From Bryobacterales bacterium (GTDB taxonomy: Bacteria; Acidobacteriota; Terriglobia; Bryobacterales; Bryobacteraceae): a stretch of DNA of 34,359 nucleotides. Under the pieces are notes generated by a model that was given only the letters and a program-made list of their open reading frames with translations, was not told where the DNA came from and did no database searches. The number at the start of each line of letters is the position of its first letter. Within the stretch, counting starts at the first letter, position 1. The position numbers and the translations under genes are program-made. Below are positions 11,821-34,359 of the stretch, piece by piece. Location of the stretch: positions 1 through 34,359 of the forward strand of contig DAHVTI010000075.1 of assembly GCA_027324255.1 (NCBI GenBank). Direction: 5' to 3'.

Positions 11821-11854
11821 GCCGGTCCCTACCGGACCGGCGGGGTGGGCTTTT
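11821..11854 (+). terminator. Rho-independent terminator after the mtnA operon
   Basis: A perfect 8-bp inverted repeat, GCCGGTCC at 11821-11828 and GGACCGGC at 11834-11841, encloses a 5-base loop. A GC-rich stretch and TTTT at 11851-11854 follow. It stands 13 bases after the TlpA-like stop, in the right orientation for the + strand. The right arm and T-run lie inside the last codons of the convergent sulfatase gene, whose stop is at 11829-11831. There is no T-run on the other side, so it should act mainly on + strand transcripts. Confidence 0.65.
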
Positions 11855-13250
11855 CCTCTCCCGTCAGCCCCCACCCGGGCCAGGCCGGATCGGCATTGGG
11901 GTTCTTCTGCGGCATTACCGCCCCGGACTTCCTGCGCCATTCGTCGAGCTTCGCCGCCAGGCGGCGCGCCACTGCAGGCTCTTTTTCGATCAGGTTCAGC
12001 TTCTCGGAAAGGTCTTCACGCAGGTTGAACAGTTCGCGCCTGCCGTCCTTGTGGAACTCGATCAGCTTCCAGTCGCCTTCGCGAATGGCGCTGCCCGGTT
12101 CCCCGCCCTGGTTCGAGTAGTGGGGATAGTGCCAGAAGAGCGGGCGCGGCTTCAGCGTCCCGCCCCTAAGCAGCGGCAGCAGGCTGACGCCGTCGACGTC
12201 CCCTGGAGCCACGCCGGCCGCGTCGCACATCGTCGGGAAGAAGTCCACGCTGGAGACGGGCGTATCGACGGTAGAGCCTGGCCTCGGAACGCCGGGATAC
12301 CGCACGATCAGCGGCTCGCGGATGCCGCCTTCGTACAGGTGGCCTTTCCCGGCCCGCAGCGGCGCATTGTCCGTCACGGATCGGGCCGACTTGCCTTCGT
12401 ACCGCAGCCCACCGTTGTCGGCGAAAAACATGACCATGGTCCGGTCCGCCATGCCCGTCCGGTCGATGGCGGTCAGAACCTGCCCGACGCCCTCGTCCAG
12501 GCTTTCCACCATCGCGGCGTAGACAGGGTTGTAGCGGCCCTGAGCCTTCTCCTTGTGGCGGGCCACGTCCGCATCCCGGGCGCCGAGCGGAATATGCACC
12601 GCGTAGTGCGGCAGGTAGAGCAGGAAAGGATTCGCGCTGTTCTGCGCGATAAAGCCAGCGGCGGCCTGGGTCAGCTTCTCCGTCAGGAACTCGCCGGGGC
12701 CGGCCTTCAGATTCGGCAGCTCAAACGGGCCGAAGTACGGCTTGGGGCTGCGCGGCGGGCTACCGGTATGGTTGCCTCCGATGTTCACGTCGAAGCCCTG
12801 GTCAGTAGGGTAGAAGCCCTCGCCGCCCAGGTGCCACTTGCCGACGCTCGCGCTGCGGTAGCCGGCCGGCTTCAGCTTCTCCGCAATGGTCGTCTCCGAC
12901 AGTCTCAATTCCATTGCCGTGCGCGGAGTGATAATCGGACCCCTCGCGTAGGAAGGCCTCCCGGGGATCCAGTCCGTCACCCCGGTGCGCACCGGGTACT
13001 TGCCCGTCACGATGCTGGCCCGCGTTGGCGAGCACACCGGACACGCTGCGTAGGCGTTGGTGAAGCGCACGCCCTGTGAGGCCAGCCGGTCGATGTTCGG
13101 GGTAGAGAAGTAGGAGTTGCCGTAGCAGGCTAGATCGCGCCAGCCGAAGTCGTCCGCCAGAATGAACACGAAGTTGGTCTTGGGCGTCGCCAGCAGCCGC
13201 GCGGAGAGCGTGCCTCCGGCCAGCCCGCCCAGGAAGGTTCGTCTGAGCAT
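11829..13250 (-). CDS. Exported arylsulfatase-family sulfatase (formylglycine-dependent)
   Basis: 473 residues of the alkaline phosphatase/sulfatase superfamily, hydrolysing sulfate esters. The N-terminus MLRRTFLGGLAGGTLSARLLA has a twin-arginine and hydrophobic stretch, suggesting Tat export. The calcium-binding aspartates are in LADDFGWRD (31-39). The sulfatase signature CSPTR (C73-R77) would be matured at Cys73 to formylglycine, followed by the further conserved GKYPVRTGV. GKWHLGG and MFFADNGG give the remaining active-site residues. No formylglycine-generating enzyme gene is in the window. The ATG at 13250 has AGGAGA upstream and follows the receptor stop by 8 bases; the frame is open to 13685, but that part lies inside the receptor gene. 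Position behind a TonB-dependent receptor suggests joint use of a sulfated substrate, by inference. Confidence 0.95.
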   Translation of the reverse strand: MLRRTFLGGLAGGTLSARLLATPKTNFVFILADDFGWRDLACYGNSYFSTPNIDRLASQGVRFTNAYAACPVCSPTRASIVTGKYPVRTGVTDWIPGRPSYARGPIITPRTAMELRLSETTIAEKLKPAGYRSASVGKWHLGGEGFYPTDQGFDVNIGGNHTGSPPRSPKPYFGPFELPNLKAGPGEFLTEKLTQAAAGFIAQNSANPFLLYLPHYAVHIPLGARDADVARHKEKAQGRYNPVYAAMVESLDEGVGQVLTAIDRTGMADRTMVMFFADNGGLRYEGKSARSVTDNAPLRAGKGHLYEGGIREPLIVRYPGVPRPGSTVDTPVSSVDFFPTMCDAAGVAPGDVDGVSLLPLLRGGTLKPRPLFWHYPHYSNQGGEPGSAIREGDWKLIEFHKDGRRELFNLREDLSEKLNLIEKEPAVARRLAAKLDEWRRKSGAVMPQKNPNADPAWPGWGLTGEEKPTPPVR

Positions 13251-13258
13251 ATCGTCTC

Positions 13259-16200
13259 CTAGTAAATCAGCTTCAGCCCGAAATGGATATAACGCGGGAA
13301 GCCCGTGGTGGCCGTGATCCTGCCGAACAGGGAATTTGTGGGAGCCGTGTTCGGAGCCGCCAGGTTCGAATGGTTCATGGCATTCAGAAACTCCGCGCGG
13401 AACTGCATGCGCAGCTTTTCCGTTAGCGAGAAGTTCTTCACACCGGAGATATCCCATACATCCACGCCGGGCGCGCGCACGCCGGAGAACCGGCTCGACA
13501 TCGTCACGATGTTGTACTGGAGCTGTTGCGCGGCGTTCCTGTTGAAGGCCGCTGGATTGAACCACGTGTTCAGGGTCTGGGCCGAGCCGGACAGAGGCAC
13601 TCGCCGGATGTCGTCGGTCAGGATGGAGTTGCCGAAGCCGAGGGGCTGCCCCGTGTTGCTTTGCCAGACCGCCTGCAACTGCCACCCGCCGGCGGCCTGC
13701 CGGACAAAGGGATTCGGGCCTGACAGGAACTTCTTGCCCGGGCCGAAGGGTAGCTCATAGATGCCGCTGATGGCGATGCGGTGCGTGCGATCGAGGTCCG
13801 AGATGACCTTCGCCGGGATGGGATTGGCGTCGTTCTGGAAGGCCGTCGCTTCCATCATCTTCGAGTAGGTGTAGTTCGCCTGAAAAGTAAACCCGGCGCG
13901 GAGACGGCGCTCCACGGTGGTCTGCAGCGAGTGGTACCAGCTAAAGCCCTGCGGTTCGTCGCTGGAAATCCCGGTGAACTGCGGGTAAGGCCGCAGCAAC
14001 TGGTTCCGGGCCACGTTGGTGCCGGCGATGTTCGTTCCCGGCAGGGGATAGAACGGGTTGGGCACCTGCGCGCTGAGGTAGTTGATGGTCTGCTGGTCGC
14101 GGGAGAGGGAAGTGGACAGCAGCGAATTCGGGATCCCGTTATACTGCCTCGTCGCGCTCAGCTTCGTGCCGCGGTTGCCAATGTAGGAAACGTCGAGCAC
14201 GAACTCCTGCGGCAACTGCTGCTGGATGCCGAACGAGTAGCGCTGCATGTAGCCGTTCAGGGCTTGAGGGCGGAAGTAGCTGACCGCCTTGCCGACGTCG
14301 GTGCCGAGTCCGAGGGAGGCGCCGGGCGGCTTGGGCCAGCCGCTCGGGAACGGGTTGGACAGAGAAGCGATGTAGCTCTGGCCGTTGTCCGTAGAGGCCA
14401 CCAGCGACGTCCGCAAAGTATAGCCGGACTGGTTCACCGAGCTGCGGTCCGCCCCAAGCGGAACGACGAAGATGCCGTAGCCTGCCCGCAGCACCGTGCC
14501 TTTGAACATCGAATAGGCCAGCCCGATGCGCGGCGCGAAGTTGTTCTTGTCCGCGCTCCAGAGGGACCGCGAATTGTCGCCGATCCCGGCGAACGTCAGG
14601 CCGCCGTTCACCTTGAACTGGCTCAAGGGAAGCTCAGGCAGCGGTTTGTTCGCATAGTTGGCGATGGCCCGCGGCCCTTCGGGGTTCTGGGCGTCGAAGT
14701 TGAAGCCCTGCACGGAGCGGTTGTAGCGCTCCGTGATCGGACTGTCGAAGTCGTACCGCATGCCGAGGTTCACGGTCAGTTTCGTGGTCACGCGCCAGTC
14801 GTCCTGGATGTAGAAGGCCGTCGTCTTCGACTGCTCGGCGGAGGAGTCGTTCACGTTGATCTGGCCGCCCGACGGGATGCCCAGCAGGAAGGAGGCCAGG
14901 CCCTGGCCGATGGGCGCCGCCGGGGAGTTGTCCAGCGGTCCGCCCGTGTAGGCACTGGCGAAGGTTTCCAGCGGAGTCATGTTGGCGAAGTTGTAGTTGT
15001 GCTCACGGTAGAGGCGGAACTCGGCGCCCATCTTCACCGTGTGCTTGGCTTTCGTCCAGGTGACGTCATCGGAGAAGGTGAAGTAATTCGAAAGCGAGCG
15101 GGACGGGCTGTTGGCGCCCAGACTCTGGTAACCCGTAATCTGGAGCCCCGGGAAGACTCGGGCCTGCGGATCGATCGCATCGGCCAGAGTCTTGGAGAAG
15201 CCCGCCGCGGCCAGGTCGAAGCCGATCGACATGGGGTCGTTCCGCTGCTCGAACCGGGTGAAGCCCACGCGGACGTTGTTCAACAGCGACGGGGAGAGGA
15301 CGTAGACATCGTCGAAGACGCCGCCGAAATTGTAGCGGTACCTGTCGTTGCCGTTGGCCGTGTTCGGAAAAGTCTGCCCGGAGCTGAACAACTGGTACCA
15401 CTGGTTGTAGCGGCCGAAGACGCGGTGCTTCTCGCTGAAGTTGTGGTCCACCTTGGCGGTGTGGGAGCGGTATTCGTTATAGGACGTCTGCAGGCGGACA
15501 TAGTTGTTCCGCCCGTCGTTGGTGCCCTGGGTGTTGGAATCCGGCCAGTAGGGCAGCAGCCCGGCGGCTGTCTTGTCGAAACGCGACTGCGGCACAATGT
15601 TGCCCGCAAACGGCTGCCGGGCGTAGCGCCCGCCCGCCGCCGGAGCGGTGGTCCTCGGATCGTAGATCTGATAGACGGAGCCCAGCGGCAGCAGCGCCGA
15701 GAAGTCGCCTTGCCTTTGGGCCGTCGTCGGCACGGTGAAGAACGTGTTGCCACGCTCCACCCCCGGCCGTGTCAGGCCTTCGAACGAGTAGATCCAGAAC
15801 GTCCTGTTCCGCCCGTCGTAGAGCTTCGGTAGCATCACGGGACCCGAAAAGGTCGCCCCGAATCGGTTCAGGATGTTCAGCGGGTTGATGGTCTTCTTCT
15901 TCTGGTCTGTCACCGGTCCCGTGGCCGGGTTGTAGAGGTTCTGGCGCTGGAAGAGGTCGAGCGACTGCAGGTGCTGGTTGTTGTGATACCAGGACAAAGT
16001 GGAGTGGAACTGGTTTGTCCCGGTCCGCAGCACCACGTTCACGTTCCCGCCCGGAGCGCGGCCAGCGCTGGCGTCATACGTGGCGGTCTGCACCTTGAAT
16101 TCAGCCACCATCTCCGTCGGCGGGGCGTAGGCCGCATTGGTCCCCCACATCGCCGGTGTGCCGTCCACGGTGAACTCGATGTTGCCGGACCGCACCCCGT

Positions 16201-16744
16201 TCACGGAAAGCTGCGACAACACCTCCGTGGCCGGCCCAAGCGAAGGGTGGTTTGGCGCGGACAGGTTCACCACGCCCGGCGCCAGCCGCGACAGCGATAG
16301 CGCGTTGCCGCCCGGCAGCGGCAGGTCCAGGATGCGTTTGCTGTCCACCACCCGTCCGACGCTGGCCGTCGAAGTCTCCAGGAGCGAGGCCTGGCCTGAC
16401 ACCGTGATGGACTCCGACACCTGCCCTACCTCCAGCGGAATGTCGATCGCCAACTGATCGCCCACCCGCACCTGCAGTTCCTTCCTCTCGTAGCTCTTGA
16501 AGCCGGCGGCAGTGGCCGCCAGCGTGTAGACGCCGGGCTGCAAGTAGGGGATGTCGTACATGCCGGCATCGTTTGTGGTGGCCGACACTTTTACCGCCGT
16601 CTCCGTGTTGGTGACGGTGATGAGGACATTGGGCACGGCTGATCCGGATGGGTCCATGGCCCGGCCTGCGATGCGGCCGCGCGCGTCCTGCGCGGGCAGC
16701 AGCGTGGCTACGACAGCGGCAAGAAGTAGGAGACGGTAGTTCAT
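13259..16744 (-). CDS. Oar-like TonB-dependent receptor with carboxypeptidase-regulatory-like domain
   Basis: 1161 residues, outer membrane. A signal peptide (MNYRLLLLAAVVATLLPAQ) is followed by a carboxypeptidase-regulatory-like Ig-fold domain at about 22-110 (GRAMDPSGSAVPNVLITVTN, NDAGMYDIPYLQPGVYTLAA), a plug at about 115-240 (DLPLPGGNALSLSRLAPGV, SQLSVNGVRSGNIEFTVDG), and a long beta-barrel ending in the aromatic FGLKLIY typical of outer-membrane barrels. This architecture is the acidobacterial/myxobacterial Oar-like type, thought to import large or complex substrates with TonB energy. The ATG at 16744 is preceded by AGGAG. The sulfatase follows in the same operon, and a membrane protein diverges at 16892. 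A 683-codon antisense frame over this gene is judged a composition shadow. Confidence 0.95.
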   Translation of the reverse strand: MNYRLLLLAAVVATLLPAQDARGRIAGRAMDPSGSAVPNVLITVTNTETAVKVSATTNDAGMYDIPYLQPGVYTLAATAAGFKSYERKELQVRVGDQLAIDIPLEVGQVSESITVSGQASLLETSTASVGRVVDSKRILDLPLPGGNALSLSRLAPGVVNLSAPNHPSLGPATEVLSQLSVNGVRSGNIEFTVDGTPAMWGTNAAYAPPTEMVAEFKVQTATYDASAGRAPGGNVNVVLRTGTNQFHSTLSWYHNNQHLQSLDLFQRQNLYNPATGPVTDQKKKTINPLNILNRFGATFSGPVMLPKLYDGRNRTFWIYSFEGLTRPGVERGNTFFTVPTTAQRQGDFSALLPLGSVYQIYDPRTTAPAAGGRYARQPFAGNIVPQSRFDKTAAGLLPYWPDSNTQGTNDGRNNYVRLQTSYNEYRSHTAKVDHNFSEKHRVFGRYNQWYQLFSSGQTFPNTANGNDRYRYNFGGVFDDVYVLSPSLLNNVRVGFTRFEQRNDPMSIGFDLAAAGFSKTLADAIDPQARVFPGLQITGYQSLGANSPSRSLSNYFTFSDDVTWTKAKHTVKMGAEFRLYREHNYNFANMTPLETFASAYTGGPLDNSPAAPIGQGLASFLLGIPSGGQINVNDSSAEQSKTTAFYIQDDWRVTTKLTVNLGMRYDFDSPITERYNRSVQGFNFDAQNPEGPRAIANYANKPLPELPLSQFKVNGGLTFAGIGDNSRSLWSADKNNFAPRIGLAYSMFKGTVLRAGYGIFVVPLGADRSSVNQSGYTLRTSLVASTDNGQSYIASLSNPFPSGWPKPPGASLGLGTDVGKAVSYFRPQALNGYMQRYSFGIQQQLPQEFVLDVSYIGNRGTKLSATRQYNGIPNSLLSTSLSRDQQTINYLSAQVPNPFYPLPGTNIAGTNVARNQLLRPYPQFTGISSDEPQGFSWYHSLQTTVERRLRAGFTFQANYTYSKMMEATAFQNDANPIPAKVISDLDRTHRIAISGIYELPFGPGKKFLSGPNPFVRQAAGGWQLQAVWQSNTGQPLGFGNSILTDDIRRVPLSGSAQTLNTWFNPAAFNRNAAQQLQYNIVTMSSRFSGVRAPGVDVWDISGVKNFSLTEKLRMQFRAEFLNAMNHSNLAAPNTAPTNSLFGRITATTGFPRYIHFGLKLIY

Positions 16745-16764
16745 CTTGAAAACTCCTGAACGAG

Positions 16765-16776
16765 CTCTGAGCAGAG
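16765..16776. promoter_or_regulatory. Short inverted repeat in the receptor leader
   Basis: CTCTG-AG-CAGAG, an inverted repeat with 5-bp arms and a 2-base spacer, lies 21-32 bases upstream of the receptor start codon, in the gap between two divergent genes. It is placed where a repressor operator could act on the receptor promoter. It is short enough to occur by chance. Confidence 0.25.
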
Positions 16777-16819
16777 TATGCAGCCGATGCGCCCGGCCAT
16801 CCAGAGTTTCGCTCCGTTA

Positions 16820-16848
16820 TTGACCGTCTCTTCGCCAAGTCCTTTCAT
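16820..16848 (+). promoter_or_regulatory. Putative sigma-70-type promoter for the divergent membrane regulator-like gene
   Basis: TTGACC (16820-16825) and TTTCAT (16843-16848) are 17 bases apart, five and four matches to the consensus hexamers. Transcription would begin near 16855. This supports a start for the next gene at GTG 16874 or ATG 16892 and argues against the upstream ATG at 16778. Confidence 0.45.
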
Positions 16849-16891
16849 CTTCAGTTATTTGCGCCCCCGTTTCGTGGACGTTACGCGTGAT

Positions 16892-18112
16892 ATGCTTGCT
16901 CCGAGCCTAGTGCCTACGAGTCTCCAGCCACGTTTCACACCCGCCGAGATCGGGGCACACCTCGATCGTGTGCTCGCCAGTGAACCTTTCCGCAACAGCC
17001 GCCGCAGCCAGGAGTTTCTGCGCTTTGTCGTCAATCAGGTTCTGGAGGGACGAGAGGAATCCATCAAGGAGCGCAACATTGCCGTCGAGGTGTTCCAGCG
17101 TGGGCTGGGCTACAATTCCTCGGAAGACTCCTTTGTCCGCGTGAAGGCCGGAGAAGTCCGGCGCAGGCTGGCCGCCTACTACGCCACCGAGCACGCGGAA
17201 GACCATCTGCGCTTTGAATTGCCCGTCGGCAACTACGTGCCCCACTTCGTCCGGCTGGAGGCGGCGGCAGCCCCTCGGGAGACAGCAGACGCCGCAGCGG
17301 CGGTTGCGTCCCGGCGGCGGCCGCGCTGGCCGTGGATCTCAGCAGCCTTGTGCGCCACCATTGCAGCGGCCGCCAGCCTGACCCTGCTCCCCAGGCGCCA
17401 ATCCGCCCTGGAACAGTTCTGGGCCCCTATCCTGAGGTCCCCCGAGCCCGTAGTCATCTTCCTTCCGATTCCGGCCTCCTACAGCGCCATCGGCGAGGCC
17501 GAGGCACGCCGCCAGACCGATCCCGTCTGGCAGGGGGTCGGCCCTGCCGGCGAACTGCGGTTTTTCGCCTCCGCGCCACATAAGGTCGGGGTGGGCGCGG
17601 CGGTCGGCGCCATTCGGTTCGCCGTCCTCTGCGCGCAAACCGGCAAGCCGTACACTCTCAAGTCGGGCACGGACTTCTCTTTCGCCGACCTCCGCAACCA
17701 GCCGGCCGTGCTGTTCGGCGCTTTCTCATCGCCCTGGACCGTGGAGATCAACAACGAGTACCGTTTCAAGCTCATCGGCGGCCCGGGCCAGCACATCCTC
17801 GACAGCCTGAACCCTTCCCGCCAATGGCGTGCCACACCCGGGCGCTACCCCGGCACTCCTTCGGAAGACTACGCCTTGGCCAGCCGCGTGATCGACTCCA
17901 AAAGCGGCCGCACCGTGATCATCGCCGCCGGCATCTCCACCTACGGCACTCAAGCGGCGGCCGAGTTTCTCACCGAGCCCTCACGGCTGGAGGAACTGAG
18001 CCGCCGGGCGCGCCGGCCCCTGAGCCAGGGCAACTTCCAGGTCCTTCTCTACACCAAGGTGATTGGCAACAGCCCGACGCCCGCCAGGATCATCGACGCC
18101 CACTTCTGGTGA
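16892..18112 (+). CDS. Membrane-anchored protein with acidobacterial putative regulatory N-terminal domain
   Basis: About 406 residues with one predicted membrane helix at 147-167 (WPWISAALCATIAAAASLTLL), giving a cytoplasmic N-domain and an outer C-domain. The N-domain (13-125) has blocks I recognise from a large, uncharacterised set of acidobacterial proteins: FRNSRRSQEFLRFVV, IKERNIAVEVFQR, EDSFVRVKAGEVRRRLAAYY and LPVGNYVPHF. In other members this domain often precedes TPR or TolB-like repeats and is suspected to bind DNA; that is not proven. The C-domain ends in the family-type VIGNSPTPARIIDAHFW. The start is uncertain: ATG 16892 or GTG 16874 fit the candidate promoter, while ATG 16778 gives an atypical leader. 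It diverges from the TonB receptor, as a ToxR-like one-component regulator might. The 3' end overlaps the methyltransferase gene by 23 bases. Confidence 0.8.
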   Translation: MLAPSLVPTSLQPRFTPAEIGAHLDRVLASEPFRNSRRSQEFLRFVVNQVLEGREESIKERNIAVEVFQRGLGYNSSEDSFVRVKAGEVRRRLAAYYATEHAEDHLRFELPVGNYVPHFVRLEAAAAPRETADAAAAVASRRRPRWPWISAALCATIAAAASLTLLPRRQSALEQFWAPILRSPEPVVIFLPIPASYSAIGEAEARRQTDPVWQGVGPAGELRFFASAPHKVGVGAAVGAIRFAVLCAQTGKPYTLKSGTDFSFADLRNQPAVLFGAFSSPWTVEINNEYRFKLIGGPGQHILDSLNPSRQWRATPGRYPGTPSEDYALASRVIDSKSGRTVIIAAGISTYGTQAAAEFLTEPSRLEELSRRARRPLSQGNFQVLLYTKVIGNSPTPARIIDAHFW

Positions 18113-22327: not shown

Positions 22328-23260
22328 TTGATCGTAACTCTGACCGCCAACCCCGCCATCGACCGCAACGTGACGGTCGATCGTCTCGTCTTTGAAGACC
22401 GGGCCTATATTCTGTCCACCCGCAAAGCGGCTGGAGGCCGCGGCATCAACGCCTCCTGCGTCATCCGCGCCTACGGCGCAGAAACGCTCGCCATCGCGCC
22501 CTGCGGTGGAAAATCCGGCAAGCTCCTGGAGGAATTCCTCTCGTCCTGCGGCTTCCCCTGCGAACTGGTCCGCGTGCGCAACGAGATCCGCACCAACATG
22601 ACCATCGCCGACCGCAACGGGCTGGCCGTCAAGCTCAACGAGAAAGGGCCTGAGCTGAGCGCCTCCGAGGTCGGCAGGCTTGAAAAGGCCGTCCGCAACC
22701 ACCTCAGAAGCGCATCCTGGCTGATGCTCTGCGGATCCCTCCCGCCGGGCGTGCCGCCGGATTTCTACGCCCGCCTGGTCCATGCCGCTTCCAAGCAAGG
22801 CGTCAAGACACTGCTCGACGCCGACGGTGACGAGTTTGATGCCGCCCTGGATGCCCGCCCCACCGTCGTTACGCCCAACCAACAGGAGGCCGAAAGGCTT
22901 TTGAACCGGGCCCTCCTCACCCGCAACCACTTTCAGGAAGCCGCCGAGCGCATCCGCGGCATGGGCGCCGGCAGCGTCGTCCTCTCGCTGGGCGCGCGCG
23001 GAGCCCTGGCGGCTTTGGAAGATGGTTCGATCTGGGAAGCCGTGCCGCCGCGAGTGGAGGCGCTTTGCCCCATCGGTGCCGGCGACGCCCTCGCCGCCGC
23101 CTACGTCTGGTCCATCCGGCGCAACCCCGACCCCGCCGACGCCTTGCGCTGGGGTGTCGCGGCCGGCACGGCATCCGCCCGTTTGCCCGGCGTCAGCTTC
23201 GCCTCTCTAGACCAGACTCGCGAGGTCTACGACCGCGTCACGACCCGCCGCGTCGGCTAG
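22328..23260 (+). CDS. PfkB-family sugar kinase, 1-phosphofructokinase-like
   Basis: 310 residues. The N-terminus IVTLTANPAIDRNVTVDRL and the sugar-binding AAGGRGINAS (GGKGxN type) match the 1-phosphofructokinase/tagatose-6-phosphate kinase branch. CGSLPPGVPPDFY and the catalytic GAGDA loop (Asp253) are present. It would phosphorylate a hexose phosphate with ATP in the cytoplasm; the exact sugar is open. The start is TTG 22328, since ATG 22320 in another frame stops after three codons, its TGA overlapping this TTG. No PTS genes are nearby. The last 54 bases overlap the convergent cobA gene, a long overlap that both protein C-termini use. Confidence 0.9.
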   Translation: MIVTLTANPAIDRNVTVDRLVFEDRAYILSTRKAAGGRGINASCVIRAYGAETLAIAPCGGKSGKLLEEFLSSCGFPCELVRVRNEIRTNMTIADRNGLAVKLNEKGPELSASEVGRLEKAVRNHLRSASWLMLCGSLPPGVPPDFYARLVHAASKQGVKTLLDADGDEFDAALDARPTVVTPNQQEAERLLNRALLTRNHFQEAAERIRGMGAGSVVLSLGARGALAALEDGSIWEAVPPRVEALCPIGAGDALAAAYVWSIRRNPDPADALRWGVAAGTASARLPGVSFASLDQTREVYDRVTTRRVG

Positions 23261-23959
23261 TTTTCCCCGCAGCGCGACGACCTCCCCGATCACCATCACC
23301 GCCGGAGTACCGACGTCGGCCCCGCCAGAGCCGGCCAGTGTCGTCACCACCACGCGCTCCTCCGGCGTGGTCCCGTTCTCGATGAACGCCACCGGAGTGT
23401 CTCCGCCGCGCCCGTGCCGCATCAGGCAAGCGGCGATCTCGGCCCGCCGCCCCACACCCATCAGCACCACCAGGGTATCGACGCGGGCGTAAGCCTCCCA
23501 TTCCTGGCAGCACCCCGCCATGCGGTTGCCCGTCACCACCGCAAAGCCGCCGGCCACGCCGCGGAAGGTCACCGGAATGCCGGCCAGTTCCGGCACCGCC
23601 ACCGCGGAACTGATACCCGGCACCACCTCCACGGCGTAGCCTCGCTCCGCGAGATGCAGCCACTCTTCGGCCCCGCGCCCAAACACCATGGGGTCTCCGC
23701 CTTTCAGGCGGACCACGACCTCATGCCGGCGCGCGCAATCTTCCAGCAGTTCCAGGATGTGGCGCTGGATCTCCTCCTGCCGGCCCTCTTCTTTCCCCAC
23801 GGCGTGCAGTTCCGCGCCGGGCCGGACCAGTTCCAGCACCTCCGCCGACACCAGCCGGTCATAGAGCACCGCGTCTGCTCGCGCCAGGATGCGCGCCGCC
23901 CGAACCGTCAGCAGGTCCGCCCGCCCCGGTCCGGCCCCCACAATGTGAATCGTGCTCAT
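23207..23959 (-). CDS. cobA: Uroporphyrinogen-III C-methyltransferase (SUMT)
   Basis: 250 residues of the tetrapyrrole methylase family. It has VGAGPGRADLLTVRAAR at the N-terminus, YDRLVSAEVL, the SAM-binding RLKGGDPMVFGRG, VVPGISSA and GIPVTFRG. It methylates uroporphyrinogen III at C2 and C7 to give precorrin-2, the entry to siroheme and cobalamin. The protein lacks the N-terminal dehydrogenase/ferrochelatase part of CysG, so those steps must be encoded elsewhere. Its ATG at 23959 overlaps the sulfite reductase stop by four bases (ATGA), which ties siroheme supply to the siroheme enzyme. Its 3' end overlaps the PfkB kinase gene on the opposite strand by 54 bases. Confidence 0.95.
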   Translation of the reverse strand: MSTIHIVGAGPGRADLLTVRAARILARADAVLYDRLVSAEVLELVRPGAELHAVGKEEGRQEEIQRHILELLEDCARRHEVVVRLKGGDPMVFGRGAEEWLHLAERGYAVEVVPGISSAVAVPELAGIPVTFRGVAGGFAVVTGNRMAGCCQEWEAYARVDTLVVLMGVGRRAEIAACLMRHGRGGDTPVAFIENGTTPEERVVVTTLAGSGGADVGTPAVMVIGEVVALRGKLADAAGRDAVVDLASLV

Positions 23960-25587
23960 GCGACCCGGTGCCACCAGTCTCCAAAGGCTTCGCCCGGCGC
24001 GCGTTCCACGGCGTACCGGTCGAACAGCGGCCGCAGCGTGGAGGCCAGTTCCTCCACTGGAATCAGCTTTTTCCAGGCCACGGAGAGGCGATCGGCGCGA
24101 GGCGATCCGCCCAGGTAGATCGTGTACTTGCCCACCGTTTCTCCGACAATGCCGATCTCAGCCGTGTACGGCCTCGCGCAGCCGTTCGGGCAGCCGGTCA
24201 TCCGCACGTGAATGGTCTGTCCCGCCGCACCCGCGGCGTCCAGCTCATTCTGCAGCGCCGCGGCCACATCCGGCAGGATCCGCTCCGCTTCCGTGATCGC
24301 CTGGCCGCACGTGGGCAGGGATACGCACGCCATGGAGTGGCGCAGCACAGGAGGCAATTCCGCCGCATGCGGCACGGCGTGGTTCTTCAGAATGCCATCG
24401 ACCAGGGTTTTCTGTTCCGGCCCGAGTCCGGCAAGCAGGAGGTTCTGCTGAGCCGTGAACCGCACCTCGCAGCCCGTCGCTTCCACAATCTCCCGCACCG
24501 CCTGCCGGATGCCGCCCTTCAGCCTGCCGCTGATCACGCGCAGGCCGAGGAACCAACGGCCGTCGCCCTGCTCGTGCCAGCCGAGATAGTCCTCCTGCCG
24601 CGACCACCTCAGCTCCAGCGGAGGCGCCGGAGTGCGGCCCAGCCGGCTCGCGAGTTCCTGCTTGAACCACTCCACCCCGCGCTCGTCCAGAATGTACTTC
24701 AGCCGCGCCAGCCTGCGGTTTTCCCGGTTGCCGAAGTCGCGGTGGATCGACACCGCTGCCCGCGCCACCTCCAGCACCTCTTCTTCCGAAGGGCCAACGA
24801 AGGCAACGGCATCCGCCATCCTCGGATGACTCTCCTTGACTCCGTTCGACTGCCCCATCCCGCCGCCAGCCAGCACCGTGAATCCCGCCAGAGCGCCCGC
24901 TTCGAAGTGCGCCACAAAGCCCAGATCGTTCGAGTAGATGTCGATCAGGTTCTCGCCTTCGAACGAGAAAGCAATCTTGAATTTGCGCGGGAGATAGACG
25001 TCGCCGTAGACCTCTTCCGTCTCCGCCTCCAGCGATGCGGCCTTCTCGCCGTCCAGCCAGATCTCGGCGTAGGCCCGGCTCTGGGGGTGGAACGACTTTC
25101 TCACCTTCCGCGCCAGCGCCAGCAGATCGCTGCGCTCAGGGCTCACGAGCGGCGTCGAATCGTAGGTCACGTTGCGCACGACGTCGCCGCATGCTGCATA
25201 GGTGGATAGCCCCGCTTCATTGACGGCCGCGATCAACCCCTTGAGATTGACCTTGCCGACGTAGTGATACTGAACGTCCTGCCGCGAGGTCACCCGCAGC
25301 GTACCGTCGCCTGCCGTATCCGCCAGCTCATCGAGCTTCAGGTACTGTTCCGCCGAAACCACGCCGCCGGCGATGCCCACCCGCACCATGCAGCCGTAAA
25401 CCTTTTCAGGCTGGGTCTTCCGCAGGTCCCGGTCATCTTGCTGATAGATCCCATGGAACTTCAGCAGCCCGTTCGAGGGTTTTGTGAACGAGTTCGATTC
25501 GTTCAGAAGCTCTTCGGCAATCCCACCGCGCAGGTGACGGCTGCCGCCCTTCAGAATCTCCGCCGCGGACACTTTTCCTGAGGCCAT
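23956..25587 (-). CDS. cysI: Assimilatory sulfite reductase hemoprotein (CysI type)
   Basis: 543 residues. The siroheme/4Fe-4S cysteines are C421 and C427 (CVSLPTCGQA) and C466 and C470 (TGCPNGCARPY), the same spacing as E. coli CysI. The N-terminal block LLKFHGIYQQDDRDLR is the CysI signature. It reduces sulfite to sulfide in the cytoplasm with six electrons. The ATG at 25587 begins just behind a TTGAG. CysI normally receives electrons from the CysJ flavoprotein, which is absent; an FAD/NAD(P)H oxidoreductase lies two genes upstream instead. The gene overlaps cobA, its likely siroheme supplier. A ferredoxin-dependent sulfite or nitrite reductase is the alternative reading; the motif set favours sulfite. 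Confidence 0.93.
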   Translation of the reverse strand: MASGKVSAAEILKGGSRHLRGGIAEELLNESNSFTKPSNGLLKFHGIYQQDDRDLRKTQPEKVYGCMVRVGIAGGVVSAEQYLKLDELADTAGDGTLRVTSRQDVQYHYVGKVNLKGLIAAVNEAGLSTYAACGDVVRNVTYDSTPLVSPERSDLLALARKVRKSFHPQSRAYAEIWLDGEKAASLEAETEEVYGDVYLPRKFKIAFSFEGENLIDIYSNDLGFVAHFEAGALAGFTVLAGGGMGQSNGVKESHPRMADAVAFVGPSEEEVLEVARAAVSIHRDFGNRENRRLARLKYILDERGVEWFKQELASRLGRTPAPPLELRWSRQEDYLGWHEQGDGRWFLGLRVISGRLKGGIRQAVREIVEATGCEVRFTAQQNLLLAGLGPEQKTLVDGILKNHAVPHAAELPPVLRHSMACVSLPTCGQAITEAERILPDVAAALQNELDAAGAAGQTIHVRMTGCPNGCARPYTAEIGIVGETVGKYTIYLGGSPRADRLSVAWKKLIPVEELASTLRPLFDRYAVERAPGEAFGDWWHRVA

Positions 25588-31099: not shown

Positions 31100-34000
31100 A
31101 TGATGCTTCAGGCTCTGCGTAGAGCTTCTGTCGCGTGCGCGCTGCTACTTGCCGTAGCCCTGTGCGCGTTCGGACAGTCTGACAACTCCAGCATCTCGGG
31201 AATCGTCAAGGATCCGACGGGTGCTGTCGTCGCCAACGCAAAAGTAACTGTCAAGAACGAAGGCACCGCCTTCGAACGTCAGACCACCACCAACGAGTCC
31301 GGCTTCTACACCGTGACCAACGTCCAGCCCGGCTTCTATGAAGTCAAGGTGGAAGCGACCGGCTTCAAGGCGTTCATGAAGACCCGCAACAAGCTGGAGG
31401 CGACCATCCCGATTCAGGTCAACGCCGACCTCACCGTAGGCCAGATTACCGAGTCCGTCACGGTCGAAGCCAGCGTGGCGCAGCTCAACACGGAATCCGC
31501 CACTGTCGGCAAGACCGTCGAGCAGGCGCAGATTCAAAACCTCGCGCTGAACGGACGCAACCCGCTGTTCCTCGCCATCCTCAAGCCGGGCGTCCGCCGC
31601 GGCTCCCCGATGAACGGATTCAGCTACGGCCTGGATTCGGGCGGCCTCACCATTAATGGCGGCCGCTCGCAGGATTCGCTCATCACCTTCGACGGCGCCG
31701 TCGGCATCCGCACTCGCGCCAACGGCACCTCCATCGGCACCGCCGACCTCGACACCGTCCAGGAAGTCCAGGTGCTCACCGCCAACTACTCGGCCGAATA
31801 CGGCCGTTCGGCCGCCGGCCAGATCCGCATGGTGACCAAGTCCGGCACCAAGCAGTTCCACGGCACCGCCTACGAGTACTTCCGCAACAACAACCTCGAC
31901 GCCAACAGTTGGAACCGCAACCGCCGCGCGTCCACCAACTTCGTCGCGCCGCTGAAGTTCAACCAGTTCGGCTTTAACGTCAACGGCCCGGTGACCATTC
32001 CGAAGGTCTTCAACGAGAACCGCGAGAAGCTGTTCTTCCTCTTCAGCCAGGAATACGTCCGCCGGCGCTGGGAAGACACGCTCCAGCAGCGCGTCCCCAC
32101 CCTCGCCATGCGCGGCGGCGACTTCAGCGAACTGCTCCAGTCCAACATCTTCTACAGCGGCAGCCGCGTCATTAATGACCCCAGCACGGGCACGCCCTTC
32201 GCCGGCAACATCATCCCGTCCAGCCGGCTGAGCCCCAACGGCACCGCGTTCCTCAAAACTTACTACGCGCCCAACGGCAACTTCGGCAGCAACAACTGGC
32301 TCCTTGTGCGGCCCGGCTGGCAGAACCAGCGCAAGGACACCGTCGCCATTGACTACAACCCGACGACGAACCAGTTCGTGAAGTTCCGTCTGGCCAACTA
32401 CAGCTACCAGGCTCTCGACACCAGCCGCAGCGGCTTCGACTACGCCATCACAGATTGGGACCGCCCGAACCGCACCGCCAGCCTGGCCCACACCTGGACC
32501 CTCAGCCCGACCATGATCAACGAGTTCCTGGTCTCCGGCTCGGTGGACCGCGTGCGCATCGGCGTCGACCGCACCGGCGAGCGCTACCTCCGCTCCCGCC
32601 CAGGCATCAACTACCCCTACATCTTCCCCGAAAACAAAGAGATCTACGACAAGGTCCCCACCATCGAGATCCCCAACTTGGGCACCATCGACGGCGGTCC
32701 GTATCCGTCCAGCTCGGCCGGCCCCATCTACCAGATCTCCAACAACATCACCAAGATCGTGAACAACCACACGTTCAAGTTCGGCGTTCTCTGGGAACGC
32801 TCCGGCCAGAACGACTTTGACCAGATCAACGTCAGCGGCGTCCCCGGCGGCACCAACAACCAGAACGGCCGCTTCATCTTCCAGGACAGCCGTCCCGCCG
32901 GCGCGCCCGGCACCGGCACCGGCATTGCCAACGCCGCCATGGGCCTGTTCTCCACCTACGCCGAAATCGGCCCCCGCGCCTACACCCCCTACCGCAGCCA
33001 CATGTTCGAGTTCTTCGGCCAGGACTCCTGGCGCGTCAACGACAAGCTGAAGCTCGAAATCGGCTTCCGCGCCACCTGGCAGAACGGCTACTACAAGTCG
33101 CTGTGGGGCAACATCGCCATCTTCGACGCCAACAAGTACGATGCCACCAACGCCGCGGTGATCGACCGTGCCACGGGCTACGTGCTCTCCGGCAACCGCT
33201 TCAACGGCGTCGTCATCCCCGGCGCTTCCTTCCCCGACGCCGGCAAGGGCCGCGTGCCCGCCATCGACTCCGGCCTGTACAACAACCTTCTGAGCGGCGG
33301 CAGCGCCTACCCCTCCCAGAACCAGTGGAACTGGATGCCGCGCATCGGCATCGCCTACTCGGCGACGTCGAAGGATGTCGTGCGCCTCGGCTTCGGCGGC
33401 TTCGCGTCGCGCCCCGGCGTCTACGACAACGCCTTCCTCGGCGGCAATCCGCCCTGGCAGCCCATGGTCTCCATCACCAACGGCGTCGCTGACAACCCGG
33501 GCGGCGGCTCCAAGAACGCCTTCCCGCAGTTCTTCCAGACGGTGGACCCGGCCTACAAGATCCCGGTCAGCTACAACTGGAACGCCACCTACCAGCGCCA
33601 GATCACTGGCGACACGACGGTCGAAATCGGCTACATCGGCACCACGGGCAACTACCTGGCCCGCACGCGCGACGTCAACCAACTGAAGACCGGCACCACG
33701 TTCCTGCCCGCGAATGTGGGCGCGAACACCAACTACCTGCGGCCCTACAAGGGCTTCGCCGACATCACCATGACCGAGCACTCCGGCCGCAGCACTTACA
33801 ACGCGCTGCAGCTCGAAGTGAACCGCCGCTTCACCAAGGGCCTGATGTACGGCTTCGCCTACACCTACGGCAAGACGATGGACAACAATTCCGGCCTCCG
33901 CCAGTTGTTCATCGACGCCTTCAACCCGCAACTGAACTGGGGCAAGTCCGACAACGACGTGCGCCACACTGCGGTGATCAACGCCGTTTGGGACATGCCG

Positions 34001-34359
34001 TTCTTCAACAACGCCGGCTCCAACCTGGTCAAGACCGTGGCGGGCGGCTGGCAGGTGTCCGGCGTGATCCAGTTCCAGACCGGTGCGCCTTTCACCATCA
34101 GCCGCACCGACGACTACCTCGGCACCGGCGCCGCCAACGACAAGCCGTGGAGCCTGACCGGTGACACCGATCGTCCCCTGAAGTTCGCCAACGAGACGGC
34201 CGCCGGCAACTACGTCGGCGTCACCGACTACTGGTTCAACCCCAAGCCGAACGGCACCCTGTGGGCCTACAAGCCGGCCAACGGCACGCTGCCGAACCAG
34301 AACCGCAACTCCATCGCCTTCAACAACGTCGGCTTCCAGAACTGGAACCTGGCCCTGTT
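31100..34359 (+). CDS. Oar-like TonB-dependent receptor, truncated by the window edge
   Basis: The frame opens at ATG 31100 (AAGGAG at 31089-31094; ATG 31103 is in another frame) and stays open to base 34359, giving 1086 codons with no stop, so the C-terminus lies outside. A signal peptide (MMLQALRRASVACALLLAVA) leads to a carboxypeptidase-regulatory-like domain (GIVKDPTGAVVANAKVTVKN, TTTNESGFYTVTNVQPG), a plug (NLALNGRNPLFLAILKPGV, LTINGGRSQDSLITFDG, GTADLDTVQEVQVLTANYSA) and a barrel (AGQIRMVTKSGTKQFHGTAY, then aromatic, Asn/Gly-rich strands). It is the same general type as the receptor at 13259-16744 but clearly a different paralog. The substrate is unknown. The codon choice is strongly biased to C at third positions, which creates a 940-codon antisense frame over it. 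Confidence 0.95.
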   Translation, partial: MMLQALRRASVACALLLAVALCAFGQSDNSSISGIVKDPTGAVVANAKVTVKNEGTAFERQTTTNESGFYTVTNVQPGFYEVKVEATGFKAFMKTRNKLEATIPIQVNADLTVGQITESVTVEASVAQLNTESATVGKTVEQAQIQNLALNGRNPLFLAILKPGVRRGSPMNGFSYGLDSGGLTINGGRSQDSLITFDGAVGIRTRANGTSIGTADLDTVQEVQVLTANYSAEYGRSAAGQIRMVTKSGTKQFHGTAYEYFRNNNLDANSWNRNRRASTNFVAPLKFNQFGFNVNGPVTIPKVFNENREKLFFLFSQEYVRRRWEDTLQQRVPTLAMRGGDFSELLQSNIFYSGSRVINDPSTGTPFAGNIIPSSRLSPNGTAFLKTYYAPNGNFGSNNWLLVRPGWQNQRKDTVAIDYNPTTNQFVKFRLANYSYQALDTSRSGFDYAITDWDRPNRTASLAHTWTLSPTMINEFLVSGSVDRVRIGVDRTGERYLRSRPGINYPYIFPENKEIYDKVPTIEIPNLGTIDGGPYPSSSAGPIYQISNNITKIVNNHTFKFGVLWERSGQNDFDQINVSGVPGGTNNQNGRFIFQDSRPAGAPGTGTGIANAAMGLFSTYAEIGPRAYTPYRSHMFEFFGQDSWRVNDKLKLEIGFRATWQNGYYKSLWGNIAIFDANKYDATNAAVIDRATGYVLSGNRFNGVVIPGASFPDAGKGRVPAIDSGLYNNLLSGGSAYPSQNQWNWMPRIGIAYSATSKDVVRLGFGGFASRPGVYDNAFLGGNPPWQPMVSITNGVADNPGGGSKNAFPQFFQTVDPAYKIPVSYNWNATYQRQITGDTTVEIGYIGTTGNYLARTRDVNQLKTGTTFLPANVGANTNYLRPYKGFADITMTEHSGRSTYNALQLEVNRRFTKGLMYGFAYTYGKTMDNNSGLRQLFIDAFNPQLNWGKSDNDVRHTAVINAVWDMPFFNNAGSNLVKTVAGGWQVSGVIQFQTGAPFTISRTDDYLGTGAANDKPWSLTGDTDRPLKFANETAAGNYVGVTDYWFNPKPNGTLWAYKPANGTLPNQNRNSIAFNNVGFQNWNLAL

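Follow-up and report, generated by a model that had tools for sequence, protein, structure and literature searches.

A predicted membrane-anchored regulator facing a receptor-sulfatase operon in a Bryobacterales genome, and its relatives in Acidobacteriota

What is the function of a gene that matches no known protein family but stands back to back with an operon for an outer membrane receptor and a sulfatase? The question is raised by a locus at positions 11829-18112 of contig DAHVTI010000075.1 (Bryobacterales bacterium, GenBank assembly GCA_027324255.1), here called the window, which is the whole stretch of 34,359 nucleotides analysed (forward strand). The answer proposed is that the gene probably encodes a membrane-anchored one-component regulator with a periplasmic sugar sensor, which would act on the shared intergenic region (16745-16909) to switch the receptor-sulfatase operon and with it the uptake of a sulfated oligosaccharide. 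The features of the locus are as follows.

11829-13250, minus strand: gene for a twin-arginine (Tat)-type S1 sulfatase, second in the operon (open frame, PF00884)
13259-16744, minus strand: gene for an Oar-like TonB-dependent-type receptor (CarboxypepD_reg domain and PF25183 barrel), first in the operon
16910-18112, plus strand: gene for the putative membrane-anchored regulator (GTG 16910 the likely start, ATG 16892 possible)
16934-17254, plus strand: N-terminal predicted winged-helix domain (residues 15-121, numbered from 16892)
17327-17389, plus strand: single membrane helix of the regulator (about residues 146-166)
17399-18109, plus strand: predicted periplasmic alpha/beta sensor domain (residues 170-406)

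A receptor-sulfatase operon with a divergent, possibly regulatory membrane-anchored protein was what a first, sequence-only reading of this DNA had described, and the three open frames lie where it had put them: a gap of 8 bp separates the receptor stop from the sulfatase start, both on the minus strand, and the regulator gene diverges from them on the plus strand. That reading had begun the regulator at ATG 16892, and here it probably needs amending. The longest open frame runs from 16778, but in an alignment of five orthologous intergenic regions GTG 16910 is level with the called starts of three relatives (L029, L030 and L073), so that a start at 16910 looks more likely. In the mechanism proposed, the winged-helix DNA-binding domain would lie in the cytoplasm, one helix would cross the inner membrane and the alpha/beta domain would stand in the periplasm. 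A sulfated oligosaccharide would enter through the receptor, and the Tat-exported sulfatase would trim off one of its sulfates, most likely that at position 4 of a terminal galactose. The periplasmic domain would read a sugar that is a substrate or product of the faced operon, altering the binding of the cytoplasmic winged helix to sites in 16745-16909; the regulator would most likely switch on the divergent operon and also control itself.

The arrangement recurs. A pattern-based scan of 84,980 genomes returned 44 loci, all titled Acidobacteria or subgroups thereof; the patterns were drawn from three regulators of the window's own genome, and the sample leans to the window's kind. With the window added, 33 of the 45 loci were usable, the others being dropped where the gene finder had not called the gene for the regulator's N-terminal domain (N-domain; L063, L067, L068, L069, L072), where no gene was present on its 5' side (L032, L035, L036, L062, L071), or as near-copies (L045, L070). 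The 5' gene is divergent in 32 of these 33 loci, against 102 of 353 background genes of the same loci. An Oar-like receptor comes first in 16 of the 33, while a divergent receptor is faced directly by 2 of the 353 background genes; the sequence-only reading had been prepared to give up its proposal if the neighbourhood were not recurrent, and on these counts it is. Two further loci have a sulfatase first and then the receptor, a receptor lies within five divergent genes in 22 of the 33, and a sulfatase occurs in ten, always together with a receptor.

The same picture emerges within the window's genome, where the N-domain had been supposed to be common in paralog families and is indeed found in 13 genes and one fragment. 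Ten of the 13 have the full layout of N-domain, helix and shared C-terminal domain (C-domain); two carry long other C-terminal parts, with TPR repeats in the one of these two that was scanned (L018), and one is short. Seven of the ten full-layout regulators diverge from a receptor gene or piece (65 of which were counted) that is no more than 3.5 kb away. In six cases the two are direct neighbours, and in one (C494) a sulfatase intervenes; the figure of 65 was reached by merging split matches by hand, with a receptor cut by a contig end (C3) uncounted. A regulator is found at five of the eight receptors with an adjacent sulfatase and at two of the 57 others (Fisher p 1.3e-4). Chance adjacency of sulfatase and receptor was dropped as an explanation, since a regulator faces five of the eight sulfatase-linked receptors. 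The three without one comprise a receptor starting at a contig end (C327), one whose contig extends for a further 1.6 kb without a regulator (C66), and one (C167) facing a 670-residue protein with a PF00486 winged helix (E-value 1.7e-14) and beta-propeller repeats (L076:3590-5602), which is a different regulator in the same slot. More widely, the N-domain was detected at E 1e-10 in 26 of 199 genomes of a phylum sample, in which at most 24 first-look candidates per genome were scored, and the window protein was matched at E 1e-8 in 29 of 41 genomes of a nearer set, the window's own genome being included in both counts.

Several incomplete members were also encountered. A 174-residue N-domain protein at L022:7978-8502 has a C-terminal hydrophobic stretch and lacks the sensor domain. 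The short own-genome fragment that matches the N-domain (L077, C231:14891-15004; E 7.5e-4) diverges from an Oar-like receptor at the end of its contig and is probably a cut-off regulator. A sensor-domain piece with an in-frame TGA (L024, own-genome C572:10165-10491) has a receptor-like fragment nearby and is perhaps a decayed or misassembled copy of a regulator-receptor pair.

The receptor of the window is a protein of 1161 residues, in which Pfam models identify CarboxypepD_reg (PF13620, residues 25-104, E 7.2e-18) and the barrel OMP_b-brl_4 (PF25183, residues 238-1153, E 9.8e-199), the combination that defines an Oar-like receptor; the Oar protein of Myxococcus likewise carries CarboxypepD_reg. 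Its match to the TonB plug falls under the cut-off for that model (E 0.0039), and TonB-dependent import is presumed. An Oar-like receptor in place of SusCD had been proposed, and this holds for the operon: a Pfam scan found no SusD-like gene among its two genes and their flanks, and a SusCD-type locus was dropped on that ground. Anti-sigma signalling through the receptor was likewise set aside, an STN-type match being absent and the lone NCBIfam 'antisigma' match (E 0.026) far short of its cut-off. A second Oar-like receptor (PF25183, E 1.1e-154) at 31100-34357 runs off the end of the window and has no adjoining N-domain gene within it.

The sulfatase matches PF00884 (E 2.9e-57) and SGSH_C. 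Its N-terminus, MLRRTFLGG, has the twin arginine of a Tat signal, which is retained in two syntenic orthologs. The S1 sulfatases are recognised by a C/S-X-P/A-X-R maturation motif and a D-D-D-N metal site, and both are present, as CSPTR and as D18, D19, D263 and N264 kept relative to 9fo1. This PDB entry is the best match (E 4.6e-165); it represents AMOR_S1_16A, described in PMC11760155 as an exo-acting kappa-carrageenan sulfatase tied to a Bryobacteraceae metagenome genome. In an alignment read by hand, with active-site residues numbered as in that paper, the metal ligands and the modified cysteine are kept, as are Trp79, His125, His201, Lys287, Glu270, Asn369 and Gln370. Of the three residues that mark subfamily S1_16 (Trp79, His125 and His149), the last is replaced by serine, with the same GSP motif in the syntenic orthologs L073 and L074, and the enzyme is filed as S1, nearest to S1_16. 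The residues shared with AMOR_S1_16A favour as predicted substrate a terminal galactose 4-sulfate lacking an acetyl group. As regards maturation, the genome has one radical-SAM maturase above cut-off (TIGR03942) and three matches to domains of the formylglycine-generating enzyme type in long open frames. It also contains a large set of sulfatases, with 63 PF00884 matches above cut-off, some of them pieces, in 6.2 Mb.

The predicted structure of the regulator and its family tree are both based on 36 of the 44 loci together with the window (L056, L063, L065-L069 and L072 left out). AlphaFold2, given these 37 rows as alignment A4, returned a full-length model with a mean predicted local distance difference test score (pLDDT) of 85.6, the N-domain being mostly above 90; helices and a beta hairpin ordered as in a winged helix are followed by a long helix (146-164) and then an alpha/beta domain. 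The sequence has a single hydrophobic helix at residues 148-166 (mean hydropathy 1.86), the membrane segment looked for in a transmembrane transcription regulator (TTR). In VIA-align, residues 170-406 align best to BcsB (Z score 10.6, root-mean-square deviation (rmsd) 3.3, 162 residues), and also to the N-terminal parts of enzymes of glycoside hydrolase (GH) families GH67, GH115 and GH84 (Z 9.1-10.4). Since a surface-layer anchoring domain from an archaeon (9fsa) also aligns to them, at Z 9.5, the link of the C-domain to carbohydrates is not exclusive.

The tree of 37 regulators places the window in a clade of 11 (support 100/98), of which ten face a receptor and a sulfatase and the remaining one (L029) has an operon that runs off its contig. 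When nine own-genome paralogs are added, the clade has 12 rows with the same support (100/98), 11 of them at receptor-sulfatase loci. The idea that all sulfatase-linked regulators form one clade was ruled out: 11 of the 14 are in the window's clade, and the other three (L026, L027, L028) belong to a clade far from it. Among the seven own-genome rows of that second clade there are also members with a receptor and no sulfatase, and one opposite a TonB_C protein. The pairing with sulfatase occurs in two deep branches and is exclusive in one only. Even within the window's clade the sulfatase motifs differ (CSPTR, CCPFR and CSPSR, seen in seven of ten sulfatases), and the regulator clade therefore tracks sulfatase loci more than one type of enzyme. 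Where the receptor is not first, partners of amino-sugar type are met with: SIS-domain proteins (L033, L051, L055, L056, L065), GH20 enzymes (L033, L054), a sodium:solute symporter (L033) and a PIG-L deacetylase (L038). A clade of 21 includes such partners among those scanned (SIS, GH20, symporter, PIG-L), together with members that have receptors alone opposite them, or else a kinase or a SIR2-like gene. Other facing genes encode a DUF481 protein (L017), a TPR-TonB_C protein (L025), a protein kinase (L052), a SIR2-like protein (L041), an endoribonuclease of L-PSP type (L058) and ApbE (L078), or are family-less (L044, L064). Given such partners, glycan loci are a main theme of the family and not its sole one, and the family is not specific to sulfatase loci. 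Similar regulator loci were seen in four same-genus genomes (L078-L081), with ApbE faced in L078 and look-alikes judged by eye in L080 and L081; no receptor or sulfatase was called in these stretches.

An outer domain that reads not a sugar but a protein partner (the receptor, for instance, or a binding protein of the periplasm) or the state of the envelope is an unlikely but by no means negligible explanation of these data. BcsB acts in a protein complex, and the C-domain resembles it and the archaeal surface-layer domain as well as the non-catalytic parts of carbohydrate enzymes; moreover, some members face partners with no evident sugar, namely the own-genome members facing the TPR-TonB_C and DUF481 proteins and the one facing ApbE. 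Against this, the tree partly follows substrate class, with the clade of 12 at sulfatase loci and the clade of 21 including the amino-sugar type partners, and a sugar sensor remains the preferred reading of the C-domain.

If the regulator acts on the operon it faces, its sites might be expected in the shared intergenic region, where 56 of the 165 columns of 16745-16909 are invariant across the five orthologous regions. The elements distinguished there are these.

16752-16757, minus strand: putative ribosome-binding site of the receptor gene (ACTCCT on the plus strand, AGGAGT on the minus strand), invariant in five orthologous regions
16775-16780, minus strand: possible -10 element of the receptor promoter (AGTATG on the plus strand, CATACT on the minus strand), invariant in five
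16816-16826: candidate operator GTTATTGACCG, the longest invariant block (permutation p 0.00045)
16879-16892: second conserved block CGTTACGC-gTGATA, directly ahead of the start of the regulator, a candidate operator or site of autoregulation

In the second block, CGTTACGC (16879-16886) and then TGATA (16888-16892) are invariant. Across the wider family, AACGGT, of an AACGGT/CGTTAC-type motif, occurs in 33 of 51 regulator-facing regions and in 24 of 262 further intergenic regions taken from these loci; the p-values of this comparison are uncorrected for the kinship of the loci, and four of the 51 regions were near-copies. Direct repeats of CGTT 11 bp apart, the strongest of ten spacings tried, were found in 7 of the 51 and 2 of the 262, and 11 bp is the known direct-repeat spacing of OmpR/PhoB-type sites. 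A motif obtained by expectation-maximisation, when applied to held-out groups, told regulator-facing regions apart from control regions in three of four folds (area under the curve (AUC) 0.72, 0.78 and 0.89). The orthologs thus share one site and much of the family a related one, of which the site in the window would be a variant.

Whether such a site would serve activation or repression bears on the mechanism. That the regulator is a repressor released by the sugar, and not an activator, is rather unlikely; OmpR-type regulators act in both ways, and the second conserved block, which adjoins the start of the regulator gene, could be a site of autorepression. On the other side, the main block of invariant sequence is upstream of the receptor's candidate -10, with 35 bp between the two, a place typical of an activator, and no conserved -35 is seen between them; both points argue weakly against repression. 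Activation of the receptor-sulfatase operon is kept in the mechanism as the likelier direction.

The whole proposal presupposes that the N-domain binds DNA. A DNA-binding fold had been made a test of the sequence-only reading, and the model resembles OmpR/PhoB-type winged helices at middling scores. In VIA-align, residues 18-119 of the full-length model align to the DNA-binding domains of SaeR (Z 7.2, rmsd 3.5, 87 residues) and PhoP (Z 6.7), although, by the tool's own note, top scores of Z 7 to 8 are typical even of models without a clear match. Folded alone, the N-domain (pLDDT 90.2) gave as its first 12 rows only DNA-binding domains that we take to be of OmpR/PhoB type (SaeR, PhoB, ArlR, GlnR, RpaA and a Deinococcus response regulator), among them SaeR at Z 7.2 and PhoB on pho-box DNA at 6.8, with the DNA-binding domain of CadC at rank 14 (Z 5.8). 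On these models the N-domain is likely to be a winged helix.

A number of results tell against the proposal and have to be set beside those above. As to the operon, the sulfatase lacks His149, and neither SusD nor a glycoside hydrolase is encoded, which leaves the source of the sugar as a gap. As to the family, 17 of the 33 usable members do not have a receptor as first facing gene, three of the 14 sulfatase-linked regulators stand outside the window's clade, and the C-domain has its surface-layer likeness. As to the sites, the held-out motif failed in the fold containing the window's own group (AUC 0.59, p 0.13), and the exact ACCGTT is absent from the window's own region. As to the N-domain, Foldseek against the PDB gave no hit with E below 0.001 for either model (best for the N-domain, E 1.4), and the regulator protein has no Pfam match, no NCBIfam family near cut-off and no PDB sequence match. 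In particular, PF00486 (Trans_reg_C), the model of the ToxR/CadC family, does not match the window protein and matched none of 34 N-domains, weakly touching three of ten own-genome paralogs (best E 0.014). HHalign of the 34 N-domains against 15 own-genome PF00486 domains gave a probability of 0.3; with 13 more diverse own-genome N-domains it gave 22.6 (E 9e-4, 68 columns), which was counted as no proof.

It could be argued from this absence of significant Foldseek, Pfam or HHalign matches, and from the fusion of an N-domain to TPR repeats, that the N-domain is a helical scaffold of common arrangement that does not bind DNA, its adjacency to receptors reflecting some other partnership. We consider this improbable, in view of the exclusively OmpR/PhoB-type rows that head the structural alignment, the clear PF00486 protein (E 1.7e-14) that fills the same slot at C167, and the conserved intergenic motifs. 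Ordinary clustering, with divergence arising by chance or inherited from a single ancestral locus, is barely credible, for although kinship keeps the loci from being independent (two near-copies were removed and others are still related), the receptor-first counts are 16 of 33 against 2 of 353 and the receptor-sulfatase layout appears in two far-apart clades.

A one-component regulator of the receptor-sulfatase operon is, then, the reading retained for the window. A broader claim is advanced tentatively, as possible rather than probable: that the substrate-specific loci by which Bryobacteraceae and related Acidobacteriota take up glycans are run by a single family of one-component regulators anchored in the membrane. 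These would combine a winged helix missed by domain libraries with a sensor that resembles in fold the N-terminal, non-catalytic parts of glycan enzymes, and their sensor clades partly match substrate classes. The recurrence of the face-to-face arrangement across relatives suggests a family of switches for sugar-scavenging genes that has so far gone unnamed. The regulator type had been supposed unstudied, and in the titles and abstract openings searched, on acidobacterial TonB-dependent receptors, polysaccharide utilization, sulfatases and regulators, no description of such a family appears. The Solibacter genome paper, in its accessible part, names receptor and regulator paralogs without such a pairing, and describes Acidobacteria as widespread and often abundant in soils (PMC3174227). 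Should the regulator indeed adjoin the receptor and sense its substrate, it would provide a handle on the function of the 65 Oar-like receptor genes or pieces of this genome, and the regulator clade, whether the sulfated-sugar clade or the one containing amino sugars, could help to predict what each receptor imports.

The surroundings of the locus complete the description. The sulfatase gene is flanked by a thioredoxin-like gene (plus strand) and the regulator gene by a methyltransferase-like gene (minus strand), each converging on its neighbour; the order regulator, receptor, sulfatase, thioredoxin-like gene is kept in two same-genus relatives (L073 and L074). About 5 kb past the regulator, 23207-25587 encodes a tetrapyrrole methylase and a nitrite/sulfite reductase-type protein, with look-alikes (by eye) of both in L073 and of the reductase in L074; a link of this pair to the handling of released sulfate is possible.

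Among known systems, the sulfatase is closest to AMOR_S1_16A, with which it shares Trp79, the substrate residues Glu270, Asn369 and Gln370 and the Bryobacteraceae link, and from which it differs by the serine at His149, its own activity being predicted from sequence. The regulator invites comparison with the ToxR/CadC layout of a membrane-anchored regulator, and differs in that its N-domain is unmatched by PF00486, its sensor domain is family-less and it faces receptor and glycan operons. A second comparison is with SusR and the hybrid two-component regulators of the polysaccharide loci of Bacteroidota. Like them, it would be a membrane regulator adjoining a glycan-uptake operon that it probably controls; unlike them, it has no Pfam match for histidine kinase, receiver or Y_Y_Y, and its locus has an Oar-like receptor and no SusD. 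Hybrid regulators are mentioned in PMC10269533, where TTRs are treated as a recognised kind of protein, somewhat enriched in Acidobacteriae. The regulator of the window would resemble these in combining a predicted DNA-binding domain with a membrane segment, so that sensing and regulation lie in one protein. The census in that paper identified DNA-binding domains by Pfam models, which do not match the present family, and could therefore hardly have counted it; if the proposal is true, a regulator family hardly visible to such a census would be added (PMC10269533). The Oar of Myxococcus xanthus is, according to PMC6434023, a TonB-dependent-type outer membrane protein, as is the receptor of the window, but is required for protease secretion, whereas the latter is paired with a sulfatase. 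On the reading favoured here, the window probably holds a regulator of ToxR/CadC-like layout from an undescribed family switching adjacent glycan-uptake operons, in this instance perhaps for a 4-sulfated galactose.

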